Shown here one piece after another: positions 9,478 to 49,056 of a stretch of DNA of 60,980 nucleotides. The translations under genes and the position numbers were made by a program. Every line of letters starts with the position of its first letter. The first letter of the stretch is position 1. The stretch is from Gemmatimonadota bacterium. GTDB lineage: Bacteria; Gemmatimonadota; Gemmatimonadetes; Longimicrobiales; Gaopeijiaceae. The notes below the pieces were generated by a model. That model made no database searches. It had not been told where the DNA came from and saw nothing but the letters and a program-made list of their open reading frames with translations. Location of the stretch: contig PBFD01000002.1 in NCBI GenBank assembly GCA_002718595.1, positions 173,485-234,464 of the forward strand, in the 5' to 3' direction.

Positions 9478-10782
9478 ATTAATAAGAATCACCTGCAAGC
9501 CTTACTTCCAGTAGCAACAGCCAGTATTGTCATTCGTGCTATCACGATTGCATCGAAATTTGCGCTACTCGGCTATTTAGGGCGCTATATGACACTTGCA
9601 GATCTGGGCACCTATGGGATCCTCGCAACTTCTGTAGCAATGTCTGTTCAATTCCTCGGAATGGAATTTTACGTCTTTAACACAAGGGAAATCTTGGGGG
9701 CTGACCAAGCCAAAAGGGGCCTATTGTTGAGTGGCCAACTAACGTTTCATGGCTTGATATACCTCCTATCGTTACCTGCATTGTCTATTCTATTTTTCGC
9801 CGGCATTCTACCGTGGTCACTCGCGGTCTGGTTTTATATCCTGATCATAGTGGAGCACCTGTCAGTAGAAACCTGTAGGATTTTATTTGTTATTGGGCGC
9901 CCTATTTTAGCCAATTTCGCAGGATTCATCCGAATTGGATCTTGGGTAGCTATCGCGGTCACGGTCGGCTTACAAATCCCAGAGTACCGATCTGTTCAAG
10001 CTATTGCAATATTTTGGATCCTAGGTGGCCTTCTTTCCATATTAATCGGATGTAAGCCATTACTACAATCGGATTGGTCCAACCCCTTTGAGATCCGTCC
10101 GAGACTCGATTGGATTCGTAAAGGGGTATCGGTAGCTATGCCCTTTTTTATGTCCGCAGTAGCTTTGAACACTATATATTTTTCGGACCGATTTATCATC
10201 CAGCACTTCAGTGGTATAGAACAGGTCGGACTATACACATTTCATCAAAGTGTCGCAGGACTAGTATATACGGCGATTACTATAGGGGTAGTGAGCATCA
10301 TCTATCCAAAAATCGTAAAATCTTTCCTTATCCGAGACATGGCGCGATACACCCAGGAACGAAAAACTTTAGCAGTGGCAATAATATCTGGCAGTATATT
10401 GGTGAGTCTATTTCTCATCCTGATATTCCCATATCTAGCTGATTTCATGAAAAATCCGCAGTTTATTGAAACTCGTTCCGTTTTCTTTATCCTATTATTG
10501 GGTTCAGTCATCCAAAATATTAGCTTTGTCCCACACTATGATTTATATGCTAGAAGTATCGATCGGGATTTGATGTGGTCGACCATTCTAGCCGCTGCAT
10601 TAAACGTCGTTCTTAATTTCCTTTGGATCCCCAAATTCGGGATCATTGGAGCAGCTTGGGCCACGACCGTAGCATACATTATGCTCCTAATAACAAAATC
10701 TTGGGCAGTAGCCATAAGGTCTAAACAACCAGGTTGGGTCCCTCCTCAGAACATTAATACACTCGAGACAAACAATGAGTAG
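9478..10782 (+). CDS. wzx: Wzx-type lipid-linked oligosaccharide flippase
   Basis: About 434 residues with 12 or so hydrophobic segments in the polysaccharide-transporter/MATE-like pattern. It would move the undecaprenyl-linked repeat unit across the inner membrane. The first in-frame ATG (9589) is too far in: 37 codons before it match the N terminus of a second, decayed wzx at 34447-34635 (about 38 of 60 residues identical). The frame is open back to a stop at 9436-9438 and has no ATG, GTG or TTG there. An ATT at 9478, about 10 bases after GGGGG, is the best-placed initiator, and the codon before it (ACT) aligns with the GTG start of the relative. The gene overlaps wzy by 8 bases. Confidence 0.8.
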   Translation: MNKNHLQALLPVATASIVIRAITIASKFALLGYLGRYMTLADLGTYGILATSVAMSVQFLGMEFYVFNTREILGADQAKRGLLLSGQLTFHGLIYLLSLPALSILFFAGILPWSLAVWFYILIIVEHLSVETCRILFVIGRPILANFAGFIRIGSWVAIAVTVGLQIPEYRSVQAIAIFWILGGLLSILIGCKPLLQSDWSNPFEIRPRLDWIRKGVSVAMPFFMSAVALNTIYFSDRFIIQHFSGIEQVGLYTFHQSVAGLVYTAITIGVVSIIYPKIVKSFLIRDMARYTQERKTLAVAIISGSILVSLFLILIFPYLADFMKNPQFIETRSVFFILLLGSVIQNISFVPHYDLYARSIDRDLMWSTILAAALNVVLNFLWIPKFGIIGAAWATTVAYIMLLITKSWAVAIRSKQPGWVPPQNINTLETNNE

Positions 10783-12004
10783 CCCGGCTGACAGAACCAA
10801 TAAAGTAACACAACTTGGTTACTGGATTGTTTGGTCCATGGTTTGCATTTTTCTGAATGTGAGCATCGGCGGAGGAATTTACGGATCCACATTATGTCTC
10901 GCTTGGGTAATAGGACTGTGGATTGTCACTGATTTAAAGAATCAAGGTGTCCAAACAGGACTGGTATTTCTCGTCATTCTATTTGCAATAAGCCTAACTG
11001 CTGGAGGTTTAATAAAAGGCACTGACACAGCATTGAGAATATGGGACTTGCCTACCGCTGAAACAGGCAACAGAACCTTCCAAGAACTAGGAAAAATCCT
11101 ATTGGTCATCCTCGGTACACTGTCCTTGAAGAATATTCCTCATAGAATTTTTGAGTCCTTAGTCTTCTGGATCCCCGTCGGTATAGCTGGAATTTCAGTC
11201 ATCACCTATATCTCTGGCGATGGAAACACATACGACCTATTACGGTTTAATATCCCTAGCTTGGGCTCCTCAAATACTTCGGGATATTGCTTCGCAATTA
11301 GTCTTCTTATGGCACACTTCTCATGGGGAAAGACCACTGACAATACCATACGTCTTCTGATAATAACTGTGACCTTAGTACTGGGTGCAGCTTTGCTGGC
11401 AACAGTCTCCAGAGGAGCAGTCTTACAGTATATCGCTGGGCTACTAGCCTTCACCAAAAGGAAGAGTCAGGCATTCGTTGGAATTGCAGCAATAATAGCA
11501 ACGATCGTCTTACTCTTTCCCAACATCGCAGAGTATCTGCAGAGGTTACTCTCTCTCTTAGATCTTCAAGCACTACAACAAGAAGGTACTGGAGGGGGAC
11601 GTATATTTATCTGGAAATCCCTCATAGGGAGCCTGCTCTCTGCAGGACCATGGCACTTCTTCTTCGGCTTTTCCCCAGGAAGCATCAGCTTGAGACTACC
11701 CGGAGCAGGAGGATCTCTGGTACAGTTTTCAGCTCACTCATTATACGTGGATATCCTATACTCATTTGGAATCATCGGAGCCACAATTGGAGCCTACTGG
11801 ATGCTTAAAATTTCCCGCAAAATCCTTAAATCCTCTCCCAGAGATCCATGGAGAAATTTACAGTGGGGCTTATTTGTAATTTTATTTTTCGGTGGCGTCT
11901 TCGATTCCTATATAGTTACAGCTCAACTACTCTGGCTTAGCTGTGTCGTACTCGCGATTTTACACGTAAATTCCCCTCAAGAATACCAAAAGTTAAGAGC
12001 CTGA
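10775..12004 (+). CDS. wzy: Wzy/O-antigen ligase-type polymerase
   Basis: A 409-residue integral membrane protein with about 11 predicted helices. The long periplasmic stretch near residues 250-330 carries GGGRIFIWKSLIGS and AHSLYVDILYSFGIIG, the Arg-rich and 'HS.y...l...G..G' motifs of the Wzy_C/O-antigen ligase fold. It would polymerise repeat units on the periplasmic side. WaaL-type ligase is an alternative, but the tight coupling to wzx (8-base overlap) and nearby wzz favour the polymerase. Its stop overlaps the ATG of the decayed gene at 12004. Confidence 0.75.
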   Translation: MSSPADRTNKVTQLGYWIVWSMVCIFLNVSIGGGIYGSTLCLAWVIGLWIVTDLKNQGVQTGLVFLVILFAISLTAGGLIKGTDTALRIWDLPTAETGNRTFQELGKILLVILGTLSLKNIPHRIFESLVFWIPVGIAGISVITYISGDGNTYDLLRFNIPSLGSSNTSGYCFAISLLMAHFSWGKTTDNTIRLLIITVTLVLGAALLATVSRGAVLQYIAGLLAFTKRKSQAFVGIAAIIATIVLLFPNIAEYLQRLLSLLDLQALQQEGTGGGRIFIWKSLIGSLLSAGPWHFFFGFSPGSISLRLPGAGGSLVQFSAHSLYVDILYSFGIIGATIGAYWMLKISRKILKSSPRDPWRNLQWGLFVILFFGGVFDSYIVTAQLLWLSCVVLAILHVNSPQEYQKLRA

Positions 12005-13398: not shown

Positions 13399-13458
13399 AT
13401 ATTTGGAAGACGTAGTTCGCTTAGCTATCATTGTAGTAGAAAAGGAGACTTGCCAACA

Positions 13459-14520
13459 ATGGACACCCATTCATCTCATCAAAGCCTAAAACAAGGCCAT
13501 ACAATATTATGGGTAATGACGATAATCCTTCGACGTCTTCCCTTTGTATTGAAGACTATTCTGGGAGTCATCATCATTTCTTCTGCTACCATTTTTGCCA
13601 CAGATGAATACACATCTACTTCAATGTTTATACTCGAATCCAGATCTAGCACTGGAAACGCAGGGATCGGAGCTCTAGCCCAGAGCTTTGGCGTTTCTGC
13701 AATGGGAGGGAGCTTGGGTAATGATTCGGATCCTCCTCAATTTTATGCTGCAGTCCTTAGTTCCTATGACTTTCTTGCTAATATAGCCCAAATAGAATAT
13801 GTAAATCCTAATCCATCTGACAACGGAGTCGACCAGCAAATAGTTAGGCCTATTGACCTATTTTCTGATCCCCAAGAAGAGCTAGCTAAGAGACTCGCGA
13901 TAACCGTAGATGCACTTCGCGACAAGGTGACTACAGACTTCGATCCCCTTTCAAGAATTATAACCTTAGAAGTCACATCTGAGTGGCAATGGTTTTCAGA
14001 AATCCTTAACAAGAGCATGCTGGAATCTCTAAACGATTTCAATGTTGGGAAACGTGAATCCCGTGCCACTTTTGAACGTATCTTTACGGAAAATAGGTTG
14101 AGTGAAGCCCAGAAAGAGCTAGAATCCGTGGAAGACTCACTCGCAGAGTTCTACGCTCGCAATAGAAGGATCGAAGACTCCCCTAGCCTAATGGCAGAAG
14201 CAGCTCGCACGCAACGACGTGTGGAAGTCAGTCAACAAGTATACCTTACTCTTTCTCAGGCTTACGAAGAAGCTCGTATTGAAGAAGCCCGAAACACTCC
14301 CTTGATTACTGTTATTGACAGGCCTGAAGGATCTTCTGAACCTCTAGGGTCCATTCTCATCCAAATCATATTAGGAGCGCTACTGGGTCTAGGCATAGCC
14401 GTGGCTTATCTCGTTTTCGAAGAATTCGTTAGGGTCCAACGTATCAAACAATCGCCAGAATACTTGGAGTTTCAGAAGGTTTTGCGACAGTGGTGGCCAT
14501 ATCCAAAAAACAGGCCTTAG
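13459..14520 (+). CDS. wzz: Wzz-type chain-length determinant protein
   Basis: About 353 residues with the Wzz topology. A first membrane helix lies near residues 25-50 (LPFVLKTILGVIIISSATIF), followed by a large periplasmic domain with coiled-coil character (NRLSEAQKELESVEDSLAEF, AARTQRRVEVSQQVYLTL). A second helix (ILIQIILGALLGLGIAVAYL) is preceded by the proline/glycine-rich VIDRPEGSSEPLGS. There is no kinase domain. It would set the modal length of the polymer made by Wzy. An in-frame TTG at 13450 exists, but AAAGGAGA sits only 2-3 bases from it and 11 bases from the ATG chosen here. Confidence 0.82.
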   Translation: MDTHSSHQSLKQGHTILWVMTIILRRLPFVLKTILGVIIISSATIFATDEYTSTSMFILESRSSTGNAGIGALAQSFGVSAMGGSLGNDSDPPQFYAAVLSSYDFLANIAQIEYVNPNPSDNGVDQQIVRPIDLFSDPQEELAKRLAITVDALRDKVTTDFDPLSRIITLEVTSEWQWFSEILNKSMLESLNDFNVGKRESRATFERIFTENRLSEAQKELESVEDSLAEFYARNRRIEDSPSLMAEAARTQRRVEVSQQVYLTLSQAYEEARIEEARNTPLITVIDRPEGSSEPLGSILIQIILGALLGLGIAVAYLVFEEFVRVQRIKQSPEYLEFQKVLRQWWPYPKNRP

Positions 14521-17654: not shown

Positions 17655-17696
17655 TGGTTATGTACGTTTCAAGATATTTTGGAATGGGCTTTTATT

Positions 17697-18665
17697 ATGA
17701 ATCAAGGTAAGATGAAGGTTTTTGAAAGACCAAGACTTATTGAGGATCTTTTGCTAGTTGAAGGCGTCTCTAGAGCTGGAAAATTTCTAATGGCCGACCT
17801 GTTGGCTGGCTGTAAGGGAGTAGAGCATGTCCAATATTGTGGTCTTTTCGAACATTTGCCTTACATGGAAAGGTTGGGAGTTATAGAGCGAGATGTGGCG
17901 AGCTCGATACTGCAGTGTCAAATAGATAATAGTGCGTACGACATGATGGTAGGGAGAAATTTAAATTTTAGGTTGAGTGACAAGTCATCTATCTATCGCT
18001 CTCCCCATCTTGGAGAATATCTGCAAAGATCTCTAGATGATAACAATGACCAGATTCACAAGGAAATCAGGCAGAGGTATTACTGTTATATTGTCCATGA
18101 AACCCTTCCAAATATCGACTTGTATCTGGAGATCTACCCTGACCTCAAGGTGATCACTATAGAGAGGAATCCTATAGATCTTGTTTATTCATGGTACAAA
18201 AGAGGTTGGGGAAGGCGGTGGGGAGTAGACCCTCTTGATTTCTCTATGTCGTTCCAGGGGGATCAAGGACCCATTCCTTGGTTTGTTTACCAAATCTGTG
18301 AACAATGGGAAACCTCTAACGAAATGGATAAAATTATTTTAGCCCAATGGCAACTTTACGAGATGAGTAAAAAAGCTTTAGAGATGCTTCCTGTGGCCCA
18401 AAGGAATAAAATTTTCTTGACTTGCTATGAAGAGATTGTCACAGAACCTATGAGAGAACTCGAATCCATCGCTGGATTTTTAGATACGGAAATACTATCA
18501 GTCGCAACTAACGTTATGGCTCGAGAGAGCCTGCCTAACTCTCATCCTAAAAAAGTGCGAGATGGCAAGCTACGGCTCATCAAGGAAATGGCAAGCAAAC
18601 AATGCTTCGATCTTCTTTGCGGATTACATGATGTATACGAGGAGAAAGGCGGAATGTTCAAGTGA
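17697..18665 (+). CDS. Sulfotransferase family protein
   Basis: About 322 residues. The start of the fold shows a P-loop-like VEGVSRAGKFLMADLL, equivalent to the 5'-phosphosulfate-binding loop of PAPS-dependent sulfotransferases, and VITIERNPIDLVYSWYKRG matches the 3'-phosphate-binding 'RdP.d...S' segment. It would transfer sulfate from PAPS to a sugar hydroxyl. This is supported by the ATP sulfurylase and APS kinase genes at 39452 and 41649 in the same locus. A TTG at 17679 is in frame but lacks a ribosome-binding site; GGAATGGG precedes the ATG chosen. Its stop overlaps a short frame at 18662. Confidence 0.75.
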   Translation: MNQGKMKVFERPRLIEDLLLVEGVSRAGKFLMADLLAGCKGVEHVQYCGLFEHLPYMERLGVIERDVASSILQCQIDNSAYDMMVGRNLNFRLSDKSSIYRSPHLGEYLQRSLDDNNDQIHKEIRQRYYCYIVHETLPNIDLYLEIYPDLKVITIERNPIDLVYSWYKRGWGRRWGVDPLDFSMSFQGDQGPIPWFVYQICEQWETSNEMDKIILAQWQLYEMSKKALEMLPVAQRNKIFLTCYEEIVTEPMRELESIAGFLDTEILSVATNVMARESLPNSHPKKVRDGKLRLIKEMASKQCFDLLCGLHDVYEEKGGMFK

Positions 18666-19772: not shown

Positions 19773-20774
19773 ATGAGTACTCTCATAATTGCAGAAGCTG
19801 GGGTCAATCATAACGGTGATCTTGAAATGGCCTGTAGATTAGTAGAAGCTGCAGCAGAGGCTGGTGCCGATTTGGTTAAATTTCAAACTTTTAGAGCCAG
19901 TCGTATAGTTACTCGAAATGCAAAAAAGACTGAGTATCAGTTGCAAACCACTGGTAAATCCGAATCTCAATTTGAAATGATTTCTCAATTAGAATTGTCG
20001 ATAGAAGATCATCAAGCTCTCCTCGATCATTGTAAAAGGAACGAAATTCGATTTTTCTCTTCTGGTTTTGATGTGGAAAGCATCGATCTACTGCTAGGAT
20101 TAGGGCTGGATTGTATGAAGATCCCGTCTGGAGAAATCAATAACCTTCCGTATTTGCAACATATATCTAAGCGCGCTAAATCAGCGATTCTTTCTACCGG
20201 TATGAGTGACCTTCAAGAGATCGGAGAAGCTCTGCGTGTTTTACAGGATGGAGGAATGGAACTCGAAAAAATCACAGTGCTACATTGTAATAGTGAGTAT
20301 CCTACACCCATGAGTGATGTCAATTTACGAGCTATGGATTCCATTAAACAGGCATATGGAGTGAATGTGGGTTATTCCGATCACAGTTTAGGCATAGAGG
20401 TCCCCATAGCAGCGGTCGCTATGGGAGCTCAAGTGATAGAAAAACATTTTACGCTTGACCGCGATCTTCCAGGTCCAGATCACAGGGCTAGCCTTGAGCC
20501 AAAAGAATTGAAAGCCATGGTAAAAGCGATAAGAAATGTAGAGATAGCACTTGGAAGTGGTATCAAAACGGTCACCAAAAGTGAACGCAACAACAGGGCT
20601 ATAGCTAGAAAATCCTTGGTAGCTTCTTGTCCGATTGCCAAAGGCGACATTTTTGACAAGAGTAACCTTGCCGTTAAACGTCCAGGTACAGGGATTTCTC
20701 CTATGCACTGGAACCAAGTTGAGGGCTGTGTTGCACCTAGGGATTTTTCCCCTGATGAATTGATAGAATTATAG
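19773..20774 (+). CDS. legI: Legionaminic acid synthase (NeuB family)
   Basis: A 333-residue NeuB-type synthase that condenses phosphoenolpyruvate with a 2,4-diamino-2,4,6-trideoxyhexose to a nine-carbon sialic-like acid. The TIM barrel has IAEAGVNHNGDLEMA, LVKFQTFRA, KIPSGEINNLPYL, LHCNSEYPTP and GYSDHSLG, and the PEP/metal-binding EKHFTLDRDLPGPDH. The C-terminal about 60 residues form an antifreeze-like SAF domain (ARKSLVASCPIAKGDIF). Neighbours legB and legF and the amidination genes argue for legionaminic rather than sialic acid. Pseudaminic acid synthase is less likely. Confidence 0.88.
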   Translation: MSTLIIAEAGVNHNGDLEMACRLVEAAAEAGADLVKFQTFRASRIVTRNAKKTEYQLQTTGKSESQFEMISQLELSIEDHQALLDHCKRNEIRFFSSGFDVESIDLLLGLGLDCMKIPSGEINNLPYLQHISKRAKSAILSTGMSDLQEIGEALRVLQDGGMELEKITVLHCNSEYPTPMSDVNLRAMDSIKQAYGVNVGYSDHSLGIEVPIAAVAMGAQVIEKHFTLDRDLPGPDHRASLEPKELKAMVKAIRNVEIALGSGIKTVTKSERNNRAIARKSLVASCPIAKGDIFDKSNLAVKRPGTGISPMHWNQVEGCVAPRDFSPDELIEL

Positions 20775-33298: not shown

Positions 33299-34447
33299 TT
33301 AGTTCGTGCGTGTATAATGAGCAGTGAATGTTTCAATTTCCTGTTTCCAATCCAACTCGGGCTCCTTCAAGCGAGATGAGTAATATTTTCTTCTCTCATC
33401 GCTTAGGATATGCACAAGCTCTTCGGCGAAAGCAGACCGAACATCTATTACTTCATGGGGATAGTGGAAGGGGAGTGGTTCTTGGTAACAGTGGCTTCTT
33501 AAGGCTATCGGCATTTTACCAAGGCAATAGGCATCAAACAAAACAGTGGAGTGAGCTGCCATGACTATGACAGACCTGGAAAGTGCTGAGATCAGTACTT
33601 CCTTGCGATCAACTTCTACATAGGGACCGAGATGGCTTTTAAGGATCAACTCAATCGTTGCATTGTCCCGCCTGCCAGGATGCGGCCTTACTAGCACACG
33701 GTAGCCAGCTTTTTCTTTGACCCATTTCACAATGGGTGCAATAGTGTGGAGGAATTCTTGCAAACTGCAGCGCATTTCAGAACCCTTCACACAGGCTGGC
33801 AGAGCCAATAGGATTAAATCGCTTTCGACTGGAACCAGGTTTTTTTGGGATTTATACTGATCCAGTAAATCATGTTTAATAAGTTCGGGACATGGAATGC
33901 TTCGCGGTATTTGGATTCCTTCCAGAAACTGCACCTCTCGACTGCTATAGACTAAGTGAACGTCACAGGCACCTCCCCCGAAACCATAACCAAAAATAGG
34001 ATATCCAAAAGATTTTTTGGCAATGAAGTTAAAGAGTTCCCTTAGCCAAATGAACCCGACCTTTTCTAGAAGCATGAAGCCGTGTTGTACGTTCACAAGT
34101 ATTGACCTTCTGGTGATTCTATTCCTCTCAATGATGTCCCGCACTAATTCTGCCCACACTCCTTCATCAGCGAGGTAGAAAACTATTGATTGTTCCCGAT
34201 TGCATTGCTTGATAATCTCAATTATCAAACTCTCTATTTTTTTAAAAATGGTGCCGTAGTATAGGAACCTAAAATATCGGCGAATAGAAAATTCAACTTT
34301 TGTAATATATTTATATTCCTCTTCTTCCAGATGAATATCCATACAAGAGTGCTGCTGTGAAGTAGCATTTTTTAGATTTTCCCGGATTCCGAAGAAAAAA
34401 TCTTCCTGAGCGGGACACACATATATAAAAACATGTAAAGTTGACAT
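33299..34447 (-). CDS. GT-B-like glycan protein (polysialyltransferase/CDP-glycerol transferase-like)
   Basis: About 382 residues. The N-terminal half has no clear motif. The C-terminal half carries YRVLVRPHPGRRD and, further on, VIVMAAHSTVLFDAYCLGKMP, which resemble the nucleotide-binding 'rpHP' and 'S....ea...G.P' motifs of GT-B enzymes such as capsule polysialyltransferases and CDP-glycerol glycerophosphotransferases. A role in building the glycan is likely, but the reaction is not known. The ATG overlaps the stop of a wzx remnant (TAATG); an ATG two codons earlier is possible. A truncated relative follows wzy at 12004-12348, so the family travels with wzx-wzy. Confidence 0.6.
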   Translation of the reverse strand: MSTLHVFIYVCPAQEDFFFGIRENLKNATSQQHSCMDIHLEEEEYKYITKVEFSIRRYFRFLYYGTIFKKIESLIIEIIKQCNREQSIVFYLADEGVWAELVRDIIERNRITRRSILVNVQHGFMLLEKVGFIWLRELFNFIAKKSFGYPIFGYGFGGGACDVHLVYSSREVQFLEGIQIPRSIPCPELIKHDLLDQYKSQKNLVPVESDLILLALPACVKGSEMRCSLQEFLHTIAPIVKWVKEKAGYRVLVRPHPGRRDNATIELILKSHLGPYVEVDRKEVLISALSRSVIVMAAHSTVLFDAYCLGKMPIALRSHCYQEPLPFHYPHEVIDVRSAFAEELVHILSDERRKYYSSRLKEPELDWKQEIETFTAHYTRTN

Positions 34448-34635
34448 TAGCATTCCATCCCGAGAAGTTGAACTCCCAGTCCTAAGGAAGTTATTAGAAG
34501 TCCATAGGTTCCGAGGGTCGTATAACGGCCCAAATAGGCAAGCAAAGCAAATTTTGCTAGAATTGAAATTGCTCTCAGAGAAAGATTTGCTGACACTGCG
34601 GGAAGAAGGGCCTGTAACTGGTTCTTATGGATCAC
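34447..34635 (-). pseudogene. N-terminal remnant of a second wzx flippase
   Basis: A GTG start with AGGAG upstream opens 62 codons (KNQLQALLPAVSANLSLRA through VQLLGMEC) that match the N terminus of the flippase at 9478 at about 38 of 60 positions, and then a stop. The remaining about 370 codons of a flippase, and the polymerase gene that would follow, are absent; the next gene (33299-34447) starts at once. A short translated peptide is possible, but a flippase function is not. Confidence 0.85.
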
Positions 34636-39451: not shown

Positions 39452-41656
39452 GTGAAAGATATTAGATCTCCGATGATTGTGGTTACTCTTGGACCTACTT
39501 CGATGGATGAGACTGTTCTTCGGAAGCTCTCCCAAAGGAAGATTTCTTTTGTGAGGATAAATCTTAGCCATACTCCGATCGAGTCACTTGAAAGCACTGT
39601 TTCATTTATTCGTTCCCACTGTAGCATACCACTAATGTTGGACACGGAAGGATCGCAGGTCAGGACTGGGGTCCTGACAGAACCCAAAAGCGTTACTGAG
39701 AACCAAGAAGTAGTTCTCTCTACTCAAGAGTTTGTTGAATCTGGCGGAGTTCCTCTACGGCCAAATAATGTTCTCGGAGTATTAACAGAGGGTGATCTGG
39801 TCTCTCTCGATTTCGATTCCGTGTTGTTAAGAGTCGACTCAGTTTCAGGGAAAGATGGGGAAAAGAAAGTGCGGTCCACTGTTTTGAGTGGCGGCACGAT
39901 TCAAAGCAATAAAGCGGTTACTGTTTTCGACCAGAATTTTCAAATGCCTTCGTTGTCTCACAAGGATGTGAAAGCTCTTGAGATAGCCCAGGAAATTGGT
40001 ATAAAGAATTTCTGTCTCTCATTTGTAGATAGCCCAGAAGATGTCAGGGAGTTTAGAAAATACCATCCAGATGCTTTTGTGCTTTCCAAGATAGAGACTA
40101 GCATGGCGATAGAGAACTTAGAAGAAATAATCGAAATTTCAGATGGTGTCTTGATTGATCGAGGTGACCTTAGCAGGCAAGTGCCCCTGGAAAGAATTCC
40201 ATTTGCACAGAAATATGTCATCAATAAGGCGAATCAGGCTTCGAAGCCAGTTTTGGTAGCGACGAACTTTCTAGATACTATGATGGAAAGTAGGTCTGCG
40301 AGCAGAGCTGAAACGAACGACATTGTCAACACTTTGCTTGATGGTGCAACCGGCCTGGTGTTGGCTGCAGAAACTGCTATCGGTCAGTATCCAGTCGAAA
40401 CCGTATCATTCTTAGTAGGTATGTGTGATGAAGTGGTGCGCTTCAAGAGATCTGGTGAAAACTCTGATTTGGCCAAGGGAGATGTGCTCCCTAAAGCATA
40501 CGATACAAACTATATAACAAGCCCAGCTTTAGGTTGTGGATTGATAGCTCCCCACGGAGGATTTCTGGTTGATCAGCGATGGAAGGGAGACATTCCAGAA
40601 GGTCTTCCCAGTTTGGAATTGTCAGCGAACGAGGCCATGGATGTAGAACAGATAGCTTTGGGTGGTTACAGCCCATTACGGGGATTCATGGGTAAGGGTG
40701 ATTTGGATTCAGTTCTGAGGACCTATAAGCTTGAAAATGGTCATACATGGCCTTTACCTATTCTATTGCGACGGTCTGGGCAGAATGTGCCGACGGGCAG
40801 GGTGGTGCTTACCTTCGATCATAAACCATTTGGCGTAATGGAAATAGAAGATACCTACGATACTGATTGGCAGATGGCAGGGGAACTTCTTTTTGGGACT
40901 CGATCCAGTGACCATCCGGGATTAAGAACTTTTCTGGGCTCGGGTGAGACCGCTTTGTCAGGACCAGTCTGGTTAACTGATAGGATTGCTAGAGAGGGTA
41001 AGAGATATGAACTCAAAGCCGCAGAAACCCGACAAGTATTTGCTGCGAGGGGATGGTCTAGGATCGTGGGTTTTCACACACGCAACGCACCACATCGGGC
41101 TCATGAGCATGTGATGACTAGGGCAATTGAATTGACAGGTTCGGATGGCGTGTTAATTCATCCAGCTGTTGGGACAAAGAAGTCAGGAGATTTTTCCAGT
41201 GCAGCAATCATAGAGGGTTATAGAGGATTGTTGAAAGTTTCAGAAATAACTTCGAAAGCTTTGTTTTCGACCTTCTCTACTTACTCGAGGTATGCAGGAC
41301 CGAGAGAGGCATTATTCACTGCCTTATGCAGACAGAATTATGGATGCACTCACTTCATAGTGGGAAGAGACCACACAGGAGTGGGAAATTTTTATTCTGC
41401 AAATGGGGCTAGAGAACTTTTTGAAAAGAATCCCCAGGTAGAGATCCAACCAGTATTTTTCGAGGAAGTCAAATACAGTAAATCCAAAAAATCCTATGGG
41501 TATGATGTAGTTGACGGTGACGCTTTGGAAATAAGTGGAACAGAGGTTAGAGAAATCGTCCACAATGGCGAACGTCCTCCCGAATGGTATATGCGACCAG
41601 AAGTTGCAGATCCAATTCTGTTACTTGGAGAAAAGGCTTTTGTCGGTGATGGGTAA
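39452..41656 (+). CDS. Fusion: pyruvate kinase catalytic domain plus ATP sulfurylase
   Basis: A 734-residue protein with a GTG start after AAAGG. Residues 1-332 are pyruvate kinase domains A and B. VVTLGPTS and VRINLSH (Arg35, Asn37, Ser39) are followed by LDTEGSQVRTG (usually DTKGPEIRTG), VLSKIET (Lys213, Glu215), RGDL (Asp239) and VATNFLDTM (Thr271). The pyruvate kinase C domain is missing. After a linker (333-355), residues 356-734 form a whole ATP sulfurylase: VEQIALGGYSPLRGFM, GFHTRNAPHRAHE (541-552), LIHPAVGTKKSGDFSS, YAGPREALFTALCRQNYGCT, IVGRDHTGVGNFY and EISGTEVREI. It would make APS from sulfate and ATP for the sulfotransferase; the kinase half may supply ATP from PEP. Domain identities are firm, but coupling is inference. 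Confidence 0.88.
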   Translation: MKDIRSPMIVVTLGPTSMDETVLRKLSQRKISFVRINLSHTPIESLESTVSFIRSHCSIPLMLDTEGSQVRTGVLTEPKSVTENQEVVLSTQEFVESGGVPLRPNNVLGVLTEGDLVSLDFDSVLLRVDSVSGKDGEKKVRSTVLSGGTIQSNKAVTVFDQNFQMPSLSHKDVKALEIAQEIGIKNFCLSFVDSPEDVREFRKYHPDAFVLSKIETSMAIENLEEIIEISDGVLIDRGDLSRQVPLERIPFAQKYVINKANQASKPVLVATNFLDTMMESRSASRAETNDIVNTLLDGATGLVLAAETAIGQYPVETVSFLVGMCDEVVRFKRSGENSDLAKGDVLPKAYDTNYITSPALGCGLIAPHGGFLVDQRWKGDIPEGLPSLELSANEAMDVEQIALGGYSPLRGFMGKGDLDSVLRTYKLENGHTWPLPILLRRSGQNVPTGRVVLTFDHKPFGVMEIEDTYDTDWQMAGELLFGTRSSDHPGLRTFLGSGETALSGPVWLTDRIAREGKRYELKAAETRQVFAARGWSRIVGFHTRNAPHRAHEHVMTRAIELTGSDGVLIHPAVGTKKSGDFSSAAIIEGYRGLLKVSEITSKALFSTFSTYSRYAGPREALFTALCRQNYGCTHFIVGRDHTGVGNFYSANGARELFEKNPQVEIQPVFFEEVKYSKSKKSYGYDVVDGDALEISGTEVREIVHNGERPPEWYMRPEVADPILLLGEKAFVGDG

Positions 41657-42191
41657 TGTGATATGGTTTACTGGTCTGTCTGGATCAGGGAAGACTACTT
41701 TAGCCGAAAGCCTTCTCAGTAAATTAAAGAATGAAAATTTGAACGTAACTTTGATTGACGGTGATAGAGTTCGAGATTCCCGAAAGAAGAAGCTGGGTTT
41801 TTCTCGGAGTGACATTGAGCAAAATGGTTTTGATGTGCTAGAACTATGTGAGAAAGAACGACTCGCTCACGAGTATGTCCTGGTTGCAGTGATAACACCC
41901 TTTGAAACAGTCAGAAGGGAAGCACGAAAACGGTTAGGACCAAATTACTTTGAAGTATTTGTGTCGACTCCTTTGGATATATGTAAGAATCGGGATACTA
42001 AGGGACTTTATCGAAAAGCTGAACTTGGTGAGATAGAGAACCTAATTGGGGTATCGGCTACAGTTCCCTTTGAACCTCCAAATACACCAGATCTCACCAT
42101 AGACACGCACCAAATGACTATAGACGAAGGAACAAGAATGTTGTTGGCTGGCGTAAACGAATGGTTGAATCTTGGGAAATCCAAAGCATAG
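41649..42191 (+). CDS. cysC: Adenylylsulfate kinase-like protein
   Basis: About 180 residues, starting at an ATG that overlaps the sulfurylase stop by 8 bases. The P-loop GLSGSGKTTLAESLLSK, LIDGDRVRD and VFVSTPLDICKNRDTKGLYRKA are APS kinase features. The stretch usually 'ISPYR' reads VITPFETVR, so the conserved Ser is Thr and the Arg is lost; 'ENIRR' is replaced by EQNGFDV. It probably phosphorylates APS to PAPS, given its coupling to an ATP sulfurylase. Divergent CysC homologues in capsule loci can act on other nucleotides (for example the CDP-phosphoramidate kinase of Campylobacter), so the alternative should stay open. Confidence 0.78.
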   Translation: MGNVIWFTGLSGSGKTTLAESLLSKLKNENLNVTLIDGDRVRDSRKKKLGFSRSDIEQNGFDVLELCEKERLAHEYVLVAVITPFETVRREARKRLGPNYFEVFVSTPLDICKNRDTKGLYRKAELGEIENLIGVSATVPFEPPNTPDLTIDTHQMTIDEGTRMLLAGVNEWLNLGKSKA

Positions 42192-42396
42192 AGTTTGATG
42201 AAGGATTTGCCCTTGGGGTACGCAGGATTGCTCTGTATGACTATCTTTCAAGAGGATTATAGTGCCTTATTCAGGTCGGCTTAGTTGAAAATTGATTGAT
42301 CTGCCCTGTCTGGTGGGTGAAGGCTTGTTGCCCTGTAAGCTGGCAATATAGGTGTAAAATATCTAAAGCAGAGTGAAAAGGGAGATTGATTGTCAA

Positions 42397-44871
42397 ATGA
42401 CGAGTGACACAAGAATGGCGGCTCGGTGGTTGCCGGTAGTACTGCTGATGATCGGATCATTTGGGTCGACTTCATCCGCTCTCATGGGTCAGGATGCAGT
42501 CCAGCAGGAAATTCAGCGCCTCATGGGTCAAGAGCTCACCGAAGAGGAAATTGTCAATCGTATTTCAACACTGGGTTTGTCTCGTGACGACTTGCGGGGC
42601 AGGCTAGGCGCGATGGGTTACGATGAAATACTTCCGACACTAGATGCGTATTTCGACCGTGTGGAAGGAGCGGTGAATCCACAGGCGGTTTCCCAACAGC
42701 GATCTAATGAATTAGTTGCTGCTTTATCAGAGATGGGTCTAATCACATTAGAAACGGATAGGGAGTTAGAGTTTGGGCGAGATAGCATTGTCCTAGACAG
42801 CATGGCAATAGACTCCCTGGGGCTGGAGACAGGCCTGAACGTTTTCGGTAGAAGTATTTTTGAGGATATTACTGCTCAATTTCAACCACTGACTTTTGGT
42901 CCAGTAGATCCGGGTTACTTGTTAGGTCCCGGGGATCAGGTCCAGTTGTTTCTTACTGGAGAAATAGAACTAGCATATAATCTAGATGTGACCAGGGAAG
43001 GGTTTGTTATTATCCCTGATGTTGGACAGGTTTCAGTGAATGGTCTAACTCTGACCACTTTGAGAGAAAATTTATATTCAAGATTATCATCTGTGTATTC
43101 AGGTGTGCAGCGAGGACCTGAAGCAACTACAAGATTTCATCTTTCGTTGGGACGATTAAGAACCAATCAGGTTTTCCTAATTGGAGAAGTCACACAGCCT
43201 GGAGCTTACCAGATGAGTCCAGCTGCTACAATATTTAATGCACTCTATAGTGCTCGTGGTCCGAATATGGAAGGATCCATGCGATCTGTTCAAGTCAGGC
43301 GTGCTGGACAGTTGGCTGGAGAACTAGATGTGTATGACTATCTCCTCAGAGGTGATGCCTCTGAAGATTTTCGTATTGAACAAGGGGACTTTGTTTTTGT
43401 GCCTCTCGCAGGCCCACAGGTTTCGATAGAAGGAGAAGTAAGACGCTCAGCCATCTATGAAATCAAGTCAGGTGAAGGCTTGTTGGACCTGATAGAGTTC
43501 AGTGGTGGCCTGAGTGCATCCGCGTTTTCAGGGAAAATTCAGATTGATCGTATTTTACCCGTGGATCAGAGAACTTCTGGAAGGGAGCGAGTTATTGTAG
43601 ATGTTGATCTCGACGACCTGAATTCTGGCCAATTTTTCCCGTTGTACGATGGTGATAGAGTTTTTGTTGAACCCGTTCTGGAAGAGAGAACAAGCAGGGT
43701 TGCCGTGACTGGCCAAGTGCAGCGTGCCGGTGATTATCAGTTAGTTGAAGGAATGACTGTGCAGGACTTGATAAGGAGGAGCGGAGGGTTGCGAAGAGAT
43801 GCATTTGGGCAAGTTGCTCATTTGGAAAGGATGAATTACGCAGACAGTTCCTATGCGTTAACGCAAATAAACTTGGATTCAGAAGGTCGGGCGAATCCAA
43901 ACCCATTACTTCAGGATTTTGATCGAATTACAGTATTTGGGAATGCGGCTCTTTCCACCAGAGAGTCAGTTTATATTGGTGGTGAAGTCAAGGACCCATC
44001 GACCTATGAGTTTTCCGAAGGAATGACAGTCGAAGACATTGTGTTGATTGGGGGAGGTTTCACTGCAAATGCCGATCCATTGACTGTGGAAGTGCTTCGT
44101 AGAACTGATGATGCGATTATGTCTGATCAAATCTCCCACGTTATACATGTATCTTTTGGGCCAGGAAGTGTACCGTTTGAAGTGAATGATTTGGACGAAA
44201 CACCTCTAGCGTTAGGCAGAGAGTTGGCTAGCAGTGTTCAGTTGGAACCTAATGACAGGGTTTTTGTCAGACGATTACAGAATCGCAGGTCGTTTGAGGA
44301 TGTTATCCTGACAGGGGAAGTTCTGCGTCCGGGTAATTATAGTAGGTTGACTAGAGATGAAACTGTGACCCAATTGGTCGCACGGGCTGGTGGACTGACC
44401 GCACAGGCCGATGTAGGTGGCTTTCGTTTGACACGAGATGATTTGACTTTGGGCCTTGATTTTGAAGCTGCATTGGCAAATGCGTCAGGTCCTGAGGATA
44501 TAAGGGTTTTCCCAGGAGATAGTATTTATGTTCCAGAATATAATCCTATCGTTACGATAGAAGGAGCGGTAGAGTTTGAATCTCGTGCTCGCTGGGTTGA
44601 TGGTCTGTCGGTACAAAACTATCTCGACCAAGCTGGTGGTGTTAGGGAAGACGGGGATAGAGATCGTACGGTAGTGACATATGCCAATAATGAAAGAAGG
44701 AGATCTGGTAAATTCCTATTTTTCAGATCGGACCCTGAAGTCAAGCCAGGCACTGTAATCACAGTACCTGAAAAATTGGAAGTAGATGGAGGTTTCAACG
44801 TAGATCAATGGTTGACTAGAGTGTTGTCAATGGCGACGGTTTTAGTGGCTATAAACGGAATGAGTAATTAA
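42397..44871 (+). CDS. wza: Wza-like polysaccharide export protein with six SLBB repeats
   Basis: About 824 residues with a signal peptide (WLPVVLLMIGSFGSTSSA). A polysaccharide-export domain lies at about 165-255 (DPGYLLGPGDQVQLFLTG). It is followed by six SLBB-type repeats beginning roughly at VFLIGEVTQPGAY, VSIEGEVRRSAIY, VAVTGQVQRAGDY, VYIGGEVKDPSTY, VILTGEVLRPGNY and VTIEGAVEFESRA. The last 20 residues are hydrophobic (WLTRVLSMATVLVAING), as for an outer-membrane helix. Wza of E. coli is under half this size, so the periplasmic ring stack would be much longer. A GTG at 42373 is in frame; the ATG here leaves AGGGAG 12 bases upstream and a proper signal peptide. No lipobox cysteine was seen. 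Confidence 0.82.
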   Translation: MTSDTRMAARWLPVVLLMIGSFGSTSSALMGQDAVQQEIQRLMGQELTEEEIVNRISTLGLSRDDLRGRLGAMGYDEILPTLDAYFDRVEGAVNPQAVSQQRSNELVAALSEMGLITLETDRELEFGRDSIVLDSMAIDSLGLETGLNVFGRSIFEDITAQFQPLTFGPVDPGYLLGPGDQVQLFLTGEIELAYNLDVTREGFVIIPDVGQVSVNGLTLTTLRENLYSRLSSVYSGVQRGPEATTRFHLSLGRLRTNQVFLIGEVTQPGAYQMSPAATIFNALYSARGPNMEGSMRSVQVRRAGQLAGELDVYDYLLRGDASEDFRIEQGDFVFVPLAGPQVSIEGEVRRSAIYEIKSGEGLLDLIEFSGGLSASAFSGKIQIDRILPVDQRTSGRERVIVDVDLDDLNSGQFFPLYDGDRVFVEPVLEERTSRVAVTGQVQRAGDYQLVEGMTVQDLIRRSGGLRRDAFGQVAHLERMNYADSSYALTQINLDSEGRANPNPLLQDFDRITVFGNAALSTRESVYIGGEVKDPSTYEFSEGMTVEDIVLIGGGFTANADPLTVEVLRRTDDAIMSDQISHVIHVSFGPGSVPFEVNDLDETPLALGRELASSVQLEPNDRVFVRRLQNRRSFEDVILTGEVLRPGNYSRLTRDETVTQLVARAGGLTAQADVGGFRLTRDDLTLGLDFEAALANASGPEDIRVFPGDSIYVPEYNPIVTIEGAVEFESRARWVDGLSVQNYLDQAGGVREDGDRDRTVVTYANNERRRSGKFLFFRSDPEVKPGTVITVPEKLEVDGGFNVDQWLTRVLSMATVLVAINGMSN

Positions 44872-47291: not shown

Positions 47292-48656
47292 TCACCAATA
47301 CATTGAGAATCGTCCACTGGCAGTTCCCCAAATCCATCGGGGAGTCGCATTGCTCGTATAGTCATAGGCACCACCCAGAACAACAGCACTGTTGTCAAAT
47401 TTCCACCCAAAATTTAACAGGAATCTATAGAAATTTCCCGCTAGGGATTTAGTGACATTCATATCTCCCTTACCCTCGGGAACTTTGGAGTTGCTGTGTA
47501 GGAAGCCACCTTTAGTCATGAATCCATTTGTTGTTGTGTATGAGATGTCTAACTTGCTCATCCAAAGGGTCAATAGATAGTTGATATTGTTTGCGAAATC
47601 GGATTGGAATGTGCGTTTTTCTAACATCCTTTTCCTAACTCCTGTCAGGCTTAAGGTCCAGTTGGGATTGGGACGAAATATGCTAAACGCAGTGATCTCT
47701 TGGGTCTGTTCTAGAAGCTGATTATTTAGAGGTCTGAATGAGGTATGGGTGTTTGCTCTGTCTGAGTCAGCACTGATTTCAGTGTAGGATCCAGCTAACA
47801 AGAGGTACTCTGTGGGGGTCCATTCTATCAGACCGCCTAGATACCGTGCAGATTCTTTGAGGGTAAATCCTTCATTATTCTGGGATTTGCTTGAAATGAT
47901 GGATTGTCCAGCTGGCATCAACATCCCGTAAACCTCTAACCTAATGTCGTCGCTTAGGCGCAAGTGGTCACCTACACGGATAGCCAATGGCTGTTGAGTA
48001 TAAACAACCGTGGTATCACCGTGTGGATGGAGTGCTGCGTCCAGGGTGACATGGAGAAAATCATTTAATGGATCTAAGATCGTGAATTGACCAGTAATCT
48101 GGTTAGCTCCTTTCTTCCATCTTGCACCGATCCAGAAGTCTCCTCCAGCTTTATGAGGATCGAGGTGCATACCACTAAAGATTTCACTAGACCTTTCTAG
48201 TTCTCGGGAGAATTGTAGCCGGATGGCACTACCTTCAAAACCACTATCCATAAGCTGATTGAATCGCGCATCCATTTTCCAAGATCCATTCAAATCGACC
48301 GAGGTCTTGAATTCCGCAGCGGAGGTAAGGGTCAAGGTAGTGGCACTGGTACCTCTCCAGCGCACACCATTAGTTTTGCTATTCCAATAGAAATCCTCCA
48401 CCGGGTCGAATTGTGATCCCAGAACATCTAGCTGATACTTACTGTCCACCAAGGGAGTGAATCTCTTGAGGATGCCCTTTTCACTAAATCTTCCCCCGAA
48501 CGAATCGTTACGATCTAAAAAAAGTAACCAAGAATTTTCTTCCCAAATCTTGAGGCTTCCATATCCTAAGATCCGATCTTGAGCTTTAGTTGGTGTTGGT
48601 ATTGTCCCAATGATTACAATACATAAGTATGTACACCAAGAATATTTTAAGGCCAT
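47292..48656 (-). CDS. Predicted outer-membrane beta-barrel protein, unknown role
   Basis: About 454 residues with a signal peptide (MALKYSWCTYLCIVIIGTI, cleavage after TKA). The mature part is rich in alternating aromatic/polar beta strands (GGLIEWTPTEYLLLAGSYTE, FRPNPNWTLSLTGVRKRML) and ends in an aromatic residue (RFSMYW), typical of Omp insertion signals. No family is recognised. An upstream ATG at 48800 would add 48 residues without signal-peptide character, so the internal ATG is preferred. Its place at the end of the glycan locus suggests a part in surface glycan handling, but that is a guess. Confidence 0.6.
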   Translation of the reverse strand: MALKYSWCTYLCIVIIGTIPTPTKAQDRILGYGSLKIWEENSWLLFLDRNDSFGGRFSEKGILKRFTPLVDSKYQLDVLGSQFDPVEDFYWNSKTNGVRWRGTSATTLTLTSAAEFKTSVDLNGSWKMDARFNQLMDSGFEGSAIRLQFSRELERSSEIFSGMHLDPHKAGGDFWIGARWKKGANQITGQFTILDPLNDFLHVTLDAALHPHGDTTVVYTQQPLAIRVGDHLRLSDDIRLEVYGMLMPAGQSIISSKSQNNEGFTLKESARYLGGLIEWTPTEYLLLAGSYTEISADSDRANTHTSFRPLNNQLLEQTQEITAFSIFRPNPNWTLSLTGVRKRMLEKRTFQSDFANNINYLLTLWMSKLDISYTTTNGFMTKGGFLHSNSKVPEGKGDMNVTKSLAGNFYRFLLNFGWKFDNSAVVLGGAYDYTSNATPRWIWGTASGRFSMYW

Positions 48657-49056
48657 TATGAAGAGTTGATATCCTCTCTCCGTCAAGCATCTCAACACTA
48701 AGCGACATTTAAGCGAATTACAGCTCATGCGGGTGTGGGCGTCTCCTAGAGATTCGTCTGATTTTGAGTATAAGGAACCTATATGATATTCGCACTGCAA
48801 AACCCATGAAACCCATATAGTATATAGTGTTTAAGCCTATATCTATTTTGCAAAGTGTCCATGAGTCTGCTCAATATGGGGCAAGAAAAGAAATTTCACA
48901 AAATTACTAAATAGCCCCTTTGTTTGAGTGCCACATCACCCAGGATATATAAACAGTTTCTAATCAAAGTTCTTCTCACAGAAATTGTGGTTCATGTTCT
49001 CTACAGTTATTTTTTGGAGCCTGAGTTGAGATTTTTTTAAATTTAAGTGATATAAA
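48657..49056 (+). other. Divergent intergenic region
   Basis: This 400-base stretch lies between the start of the beta-barrel gene (minus) and the methyltransferase (plus) and must hold their promoters. It is AT-rich toward the methyltransferase. I see no gene or clear repeat. A minus-strand open frame extends 48 codons into it, but the signal peptide argues against its use. Confidence 0.5.

Follow-up and report, generated by a model that had tools for sequence, protein, structure and literature searches.

A pyruvate kinase–ATP sulfurylase fusion gene in a polysaccharide cluster of Gemmatimonadota

ATP sulfurylase (Sat) converts ATP and sulfate to APS and PPi, a classic uphill reaction, and APS kinase then converts APS and ATP to PAPS and ADP. 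The known natural aids to the uphill step are a fused APS kinase or a fused pyrophosphatase, and the fusion partners described for ATP sulfurylase are APS kinase, pyrophosphatase and APS reductase (PMC4220642, PMC2275785). Bifunctional PAPS synthases (APK-ATPS in metazoans, ATPS-APK in Aquifex and fungi) carry out sulfate activation as one PAPS unit. In the APK-ATPS-pyrophosphatase of diatoms, haptophytes and Phytophthora (Bradley et al. 2009, via PMC4220642; PMC2275785), Sat is joined to an enzyme that removes PPi and is thought to aid the energetics, with the cytosolic isoform presumed to act in sulfation. The occurrence of PAPS genes with a sulfotransferase in a polysaccharide cluster has been called a hallmark of sulfated polysaccharides (PMC11641403); the sulfated capsule cluster of Vibrio sp. 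KMM 8419 described there combines cysNDC with a sulfotransferase.

We analysed a window of 60,980 nucleotides, that is, the whole stretch of DNA studied here, from a Gemmatimonadota genome (G000) in which one gene joins pyruvate kinase (PK) to Sat. The encoded protein resembles the eukaryotic triple fusion in its energetic partner and presumed service to sulfation, but it is bacterial, carries PK at its N-terminus and has its APS kinase encoded by a separate, overlapping gene. It likewise recalls the PAPS synthases as part of one PAPS unit; those enzymes, however, lack a PK domain and contain APS kinase as a domain instead of having it encoded by a neighbouring gene. The Vibrio cluster uses CysDN and CysC, and its description does not mention PK. 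The synechan xss cluster of Synechocystis shares Wzx/Wzy and sulfotransferase genes with the window cluster but, in the part of its description drawn on here, no dedicated sulfate activation enzyme is mentioned (PMC8205485). A natural PK-Sat fusion would be a third solution, in which glycolytic PEP is wired into sulfate activation. No report of such a fusion was found among open-licence papers, in keeping with the initial annotation, which knew of no characterised enzyme of this design. The novelty lies in the architecture, which combines two familiar enzymes in a familiar pathway and has its own branch of PK.

Domain structure of the fusion protein

The fusion gene (39452–41656, plus strand) is one uninterrupted frame of 734 residues with zero internal stops; it starts with GTG, with AAAGGTG 6 nt upstream. 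The initial annotation had described PK domains A and B followed by a complete ATP sulfurylase, with the PK C domain missing, and profile searches bore this out. Pfam placed PF00224 at residues 5–318 (208.7 bits; cut-off 30), PF14306 (PUA_2) at 367–510 (103.4 bits; cut-off 27) and PF01747 at 518–721 (218.4 bits; cut-off 24.3). The equivalog models of NCBIfam, by contrast, fell below their cut-offs, with 254.1 against 306.4 bits for pyruvate kinase (TIGR01064) and 289.4 against 322.95 bits for sulfate adenylyltransferase (TIGR00339, sopT), so that routine annotation may not name the fusion cleanly.

The full-chain structure prediction that had been suggested was run with AlphaFold2 on a 57-row alignment and gave a mean pLDDT of 90.4 and a pTM of 0.80. 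Values below 50 were confined to the first three residues and to residues 340–350, which lie in the linker (40442–40546, plus strand; residues 331–365), the least conserved and partly disordered stretch of the protein. The PK half (39464–40405, plus strand) matched PK domains A and B in structure, with an rmsd of 2.3 Å to Escherichia coli PykF (Foldseek). It shares these domains and all catalytic residues with ordinary PK (PF00224; TIGR01064) but has changed signature positions and lacks the C-terminal allosteric and interface domain, in whose place Sat stands in the Pfam and AlphaFold2 results. The Sat half (40550–41614, plus strand), comprising the PUA_2 and catalytic domains, matched the solved Sat structures of M. 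thermolithotrophicus and Thermus with a TM of 0.90 of target. Among the 50 best Foldseek matches in the PDB, none spanned more than about half of the fusion protein and none covered both halves.

Distribution, descent and constraint

The fusion occurs in at least seven genomes of two phyla: three of one genus (G000 and its congeners G121 and G408), two representing other genera of the same family (G339 and G370), and the megaplasmids of Sinorhizobium chiapasense and Ensifer adhaerens. Identity to the window protein is 81–82% in the congeners (loci L005 and L006/L037), 40–42% in G339 and G370, and 42% in the rhizobia (L064, L065). All 121 available genomes of the family were searched, and five carry the fusion. 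A DNA-pattern search for the DTEG signature covered 395 genomes of the phylum, four of the fusion genomes among them; it recovered those four and one chance match in a frame not encoding PK. The fusions form single clades in the PK tree (100/100) and in the Sat tree (100/98), and the deep branching is the same in both, with the genus standing apart and the rhizobial pair grouping with G339 and G370. These single clades and agreeing trees would fit a single origin of the fusion, which was then inherited by descent and passed between phyla at least once.

The catalytic residues R35, N37, S39, D64, T65, R71, K154, K213, E215, D239 and T271 are invariant in all seven fusions; in rabbit numbering, the invariant PK catalytic set comprises R72, N74, S76, D112, T113, R119, K269, E271, D295 and T327. 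The motifs and residues named in the initial annotation (VRINLSH, DTEGSQVRT, K213, E215, D239 and T271) are all present. Comparison of G408 with G121, for which dS is unsaturated, gave omega values of 0.079 (PK half), 0.099 (Sat half) and 0.18 (linker). Purifying selection on the PK half is at least as strong as that on the Sat half, and the low value indicates that the PK half is working rather than vestigial. Decay of the PK half is ruled out by this omega of 0.08 together with the invariant catalytic residues. Its occurrence in seven genomes of two phyla marks the fusion as genuine and maintained by selection, and the design is apparently undescribed.

The surroundings of the PK active site are altered in a consistent way. 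The DTKGPEIR motif of the A/B hinge and K+-site loop reads DTEGSQVRT in the window protein (39641–39667, plus strand) and DTEGxQVR in all seven fusions (K114E and E117Q, rabbit numbering). The initial annotation was right that this motif is changed; the change does not reflect decay, since the altered form is invariant in the seven fusions and nearly so in two viral PKs described below. The PEP-site motif ARGD reads DRGD (40157–40168, plus strand; A292D), and ATQ has become ATN (Q328N) and LSG has become LAA (S361A) in 7/7. The family signature common to all seven is DTEGxQVR, DRGDLSR, ATN and LAAETA, and none of the residues at these five positions is typical among the 26 ordinary PKs compared; at position 292, Asp was found in 0 of 26 housekeeping PKs. 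Position 117, which distinguishes K+-dependent (Glu) from K+-independent (Lys) PKs, is neither in this group, being Gln in every fusion and in both viral PKs. In rabbit PK, K114Q has kinetic constants like those of the wild type (PMC8835810), and E117A is still active and still K+-dependent (PMC4374775), so the DTEG change alone would not abolish activity.

In the Sat half, the active-site motifs RNxxHRxHE and GRDHxGVG are kept in all seven fusions. The sulfate-binding motif reads HTRN instead of the usual QTRN (41075–41086, plus strand), its first residue being His in 7/7 fusions versus Gln in all 40 other Sats sampled.

The fusion is not the housekeeping (glycolytic) PK of its hosts, a reading ruled out by a separate intact ordinary PK in four of the five fusion-bearing Gemmatimonadota genomes (G121, G408, G339 and G370). 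In G000, the ordinary PK (G000:C2:108762-109704, locus L040) is split over two frames, probably by a sequencing or assembly error, because it is intact in the congeners.

The polysaccharide cluster and sulfate activation

The APS kinase gene cysC (41649–42191, plus strand) begins with an ATG at 41649 and overlaps the 3' end of the fusion, whose stop is at 41654–41656, by 8 nt. It is the sole PF01583 match in G000, where PF01747 likewise matches nothing but the fusion. Upstream in the window lie genes, all on the plus strand, for a Wzx-like flippase (9589–10782; PF01943), a Wzy-like polymerase or ligase (10775–12004; PF04932), a Wzz-like chain-length protein (13450–14520; PF13807, a weak match below the curated cut-off), a sulfotransferase (17679–18665), which is the sole PF00685 match in the genome, and a nonulosonic acid synthase of the NeuB family, which uses PEP (19773–20774; PF03102). 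A Wza-like polysaccharide export protein with SLBB domains follows cysC (42373–44871, plus strand; PF02563, PF10531), and the cluster also encodes glycosyltransferases and sugar-nucleotide enzymes. Sulfate activation, APS kinase and a sulfotransferase are thus found together in one polysaccharide cluster. Two opposite-strand proteins of the cluster (33299–34453 and 47292–48800, minus strand) had no significant Pfam match.

The same setting recurs in part among the relatives. APS kinase directly follows the fusion in the window, in the congeners and on both rhizobial plasmids; in G339 and G370 it does not adjoin the fusion and is located elsewhere in a long frame. A sulfotransferase lies about 8–24 kb from the fusion on the same contig in the window, in G121, in G339 and on both plasmids (21 kb in G000, 8 kb in G339, 17–20 kb in the rhizobia), and none was found by phmmer on the G370 fusion contig. 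On the rhizobial plasmids a Wzy-like gene is located just upstream of the fusion. PF01507 (CysD/CysH) was detected in none of the three congeneric genomes G000, G121 and G408, which are 82–94% complete, and in 14 of 14 control genomes. An assimilatory role for Sat is ruled out by this absence.

Given the overlapping APS kinase, the sulfotransferase of the cluster and the missing CysD/CysH, the fusion most likely supplies PAPS for sulfating an exported polysaccharide, not for cysteine synthesis, and the surface polysaccharide made by the window cluster is probably sulfated. This refines the purpose given in the initial annotation, which named neither the APS kinase nor the sulfotransferase. The fusion marks a recognisable sulfated-polysaccharide module in Gemmatimonadota and rhizobia.

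Metallophosphatase-like proteins, some with repeat domains, are also encoded near the fusion in the rhizobia (L064:25041-32118), G339 and G370 (L038:8329-10983 and L039:5224-6381); they were confirmed by Pfam in L039 only and possibly belong to the fusion cassette. In relatives, the genes beside the fusion also repeatedly include ones for uncharacterised proteins resembling P-loop kinases (L064:15999-16859, L038:89-1613, L039:1173-3575).

Possible role of the pyruvate kinase half

The DNA shows a conserved fusion with both halves under constraint, an overlapping cysC, genes for a sulfotransferase and for export, and no CysD/CysH. Overall, these features are best explained by a PAPS-dedicated enzyme whose PK half would use PEP to regenerate ATP from the ADP left by APS kinase. 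We give this explanation a probability of about 0.5; in it, PEP use, ADP as the acceptor, functional coupling of the halves and polysaccharide sulfation are what we infer. The Sat half would convert ATP and sulfate to APS and PPi, the APS kinase encoded by the overlapping gene would phosphorylate APS with ATP to give PAPS and ADP, and the cluster sulfotransferase would spend PAPS on the exported polysaccharide. The PK half, presumably catalytically competent and, lacking the C domain, no longer under the allosteric control of glycolysis, would transfer phosphate from PEP to the ADP of APS kinase beside both enzymes. PAPS synthesis could thereby run on PEP, with ADP kept from inhibiting APS kinase. 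The initial annotation had proposed that the fusion supplies ATP locally or ties sulfate activation to PEP. The link to sulfate activation stands, with both halves under constraint, but PK cannot recycle what Sat itself releases, which is APS and PPi and not ADP, and the source of ADP would be APS kinase. In PAPS synthase systems in vitro, PK and PEP are added to regenerate ATP and relieve the ADP inhibition of APS kinase (PMC9885120); the fusion resembles this test-tube arrangement and may be useful for enzymatic sulfation.

Several observations weigh against this explanation as a whole. PK would not remove PPi, which is what chiefly restrains ATP sulfurylase, APS kinase does not adjoin the fusion in G339 and G370, the sulfotransferase of G000 is 21 kb away, and the sulfate motif of the Sat half carries His for the usual Gln. 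The consistent changes beside the PK active site (K114E, E117Q, A292D, Q328N and S361A) could, moreover, alter the acceptor or donor.

Two groups of PKs outside the fusion bear on this point. The first is in G287, a member of the same family that has no fusion: cysC, sat and pyk are consecutive in a polysaccharide cluster (L041:3751-6876), and the sat and pyk genes overlap. This operon PK has 481 residues, reads LDVPGRKIRT and carries A292D, and an ordinary PK is encoded elsewhere in the genome (L125). In the Sat tree, the protein of G287 is the one closest to the fusion Sats (98/93), while the operon PK groups with the fusion and viral PKs without firm support (88/60). No sulfotransferase was found near the operon by phmmer, and no PK was found near the other non-fusion Sat loci sampled, most of which are shorter than 5 kb. 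The G287 operon appears to be an independent link between PK and sulfate activation. The G287 cluster (L152) also has aldolase-like and CMP-sugar synthase-like genes, and CysD/CysN-like genes lie about 20 kb off (L151).

The second group is encoded on two related contigs from IMG/VR that also bear phage replication genes (UvsX/helicase-like); its members are free-standing PKs of 317–318 residues with no C domain (L097:7998-8954 and L098:603-1556). These read DTEGAQIRT, DRGD, ATNF and LAAETA and form the sister group of the fusion PKs. No Sat or APS kinase was found on either contig with the PF01747 profile and phmmer.

These proteins give some weight to a reading in which the PK half actively transfers phosphate from PEP, but to something besides ADP; the acceptor might be a different sulfate-activation product or intermediate, and its removal would pull the reaction. 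The catalytic residues are kept while their surroundings are replaced invariantly in all seven fusions, nearly the same signature occurs in viral PKs with no Sat on the contig, and A292D extends to the G287 operon PK. The sequence points to no candidate acceptor, however, and the nucleotide-contact residues H40 and K154, inferred from known PK structures, are retained. This reading is an unlikely one, if the strongest of the alternatives.

Somewhat less probable still is a non-catalytic PK half that senses PEP, K+ or energy state and regulates Sat. Pseudoenzymes usually lose their catalytic residues. Here the neighbours of the active site are altered, and a non-catalytic APS-kinase-like domain regulates fungal ATP sulfurylase (PMC4220642, PMC2275785), but all catalytic residues are invariant across about 60% divergence. 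The full PK of G287 is, besides, a separate gene beside sat and cysC, a pairing that domain contact cannot explain.

We consider it improbable that the PK half has a mainly structural task, that of scaffolding or oligomerising a complex with APS kinase. Sat enzymes form dimers to hexamers, the A domain of PK serves as an interface and Sat stands in the place of the C domain, yet the invariant blocks include the catalytic motifs, and a pure scaffold would have no need of these. No point was found in favour of an assembly chimera or of chance read-through from one gene into the next, and both are refuted by seven independent genomes (40–82% identity), congruent trees and a confident two-domain fold, which also settles the question of an assembly join raised in the initial annotation, six other independent assemblies having the same fusion.

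Beyond ADP recycling in the fusion itself, DTEG-type PKs might, tentatively, constitute a distinct and unnamed PK branch for sulfation metabolism, a PEP-driven phosphotransferase acting in or beside bacterial sulfate activation and found also in phage-like viruses, possibly with a non-ADP acceptor, such that PEP and not the general ATP pool would drive PAPS synthesis.

A further gene adjoins the PK on both viral contigs, overlapping it in L098 (L098:1553-2131) and abutting it in L097 (L097:8921-9529). It had no significant match in Pfam, PHROGs or a PDB profile search. By eye it resembles a sulfotransferase (WLIKSAGRTASHLLL ... YREDLIDD), a likeness recorded here as a lead only.
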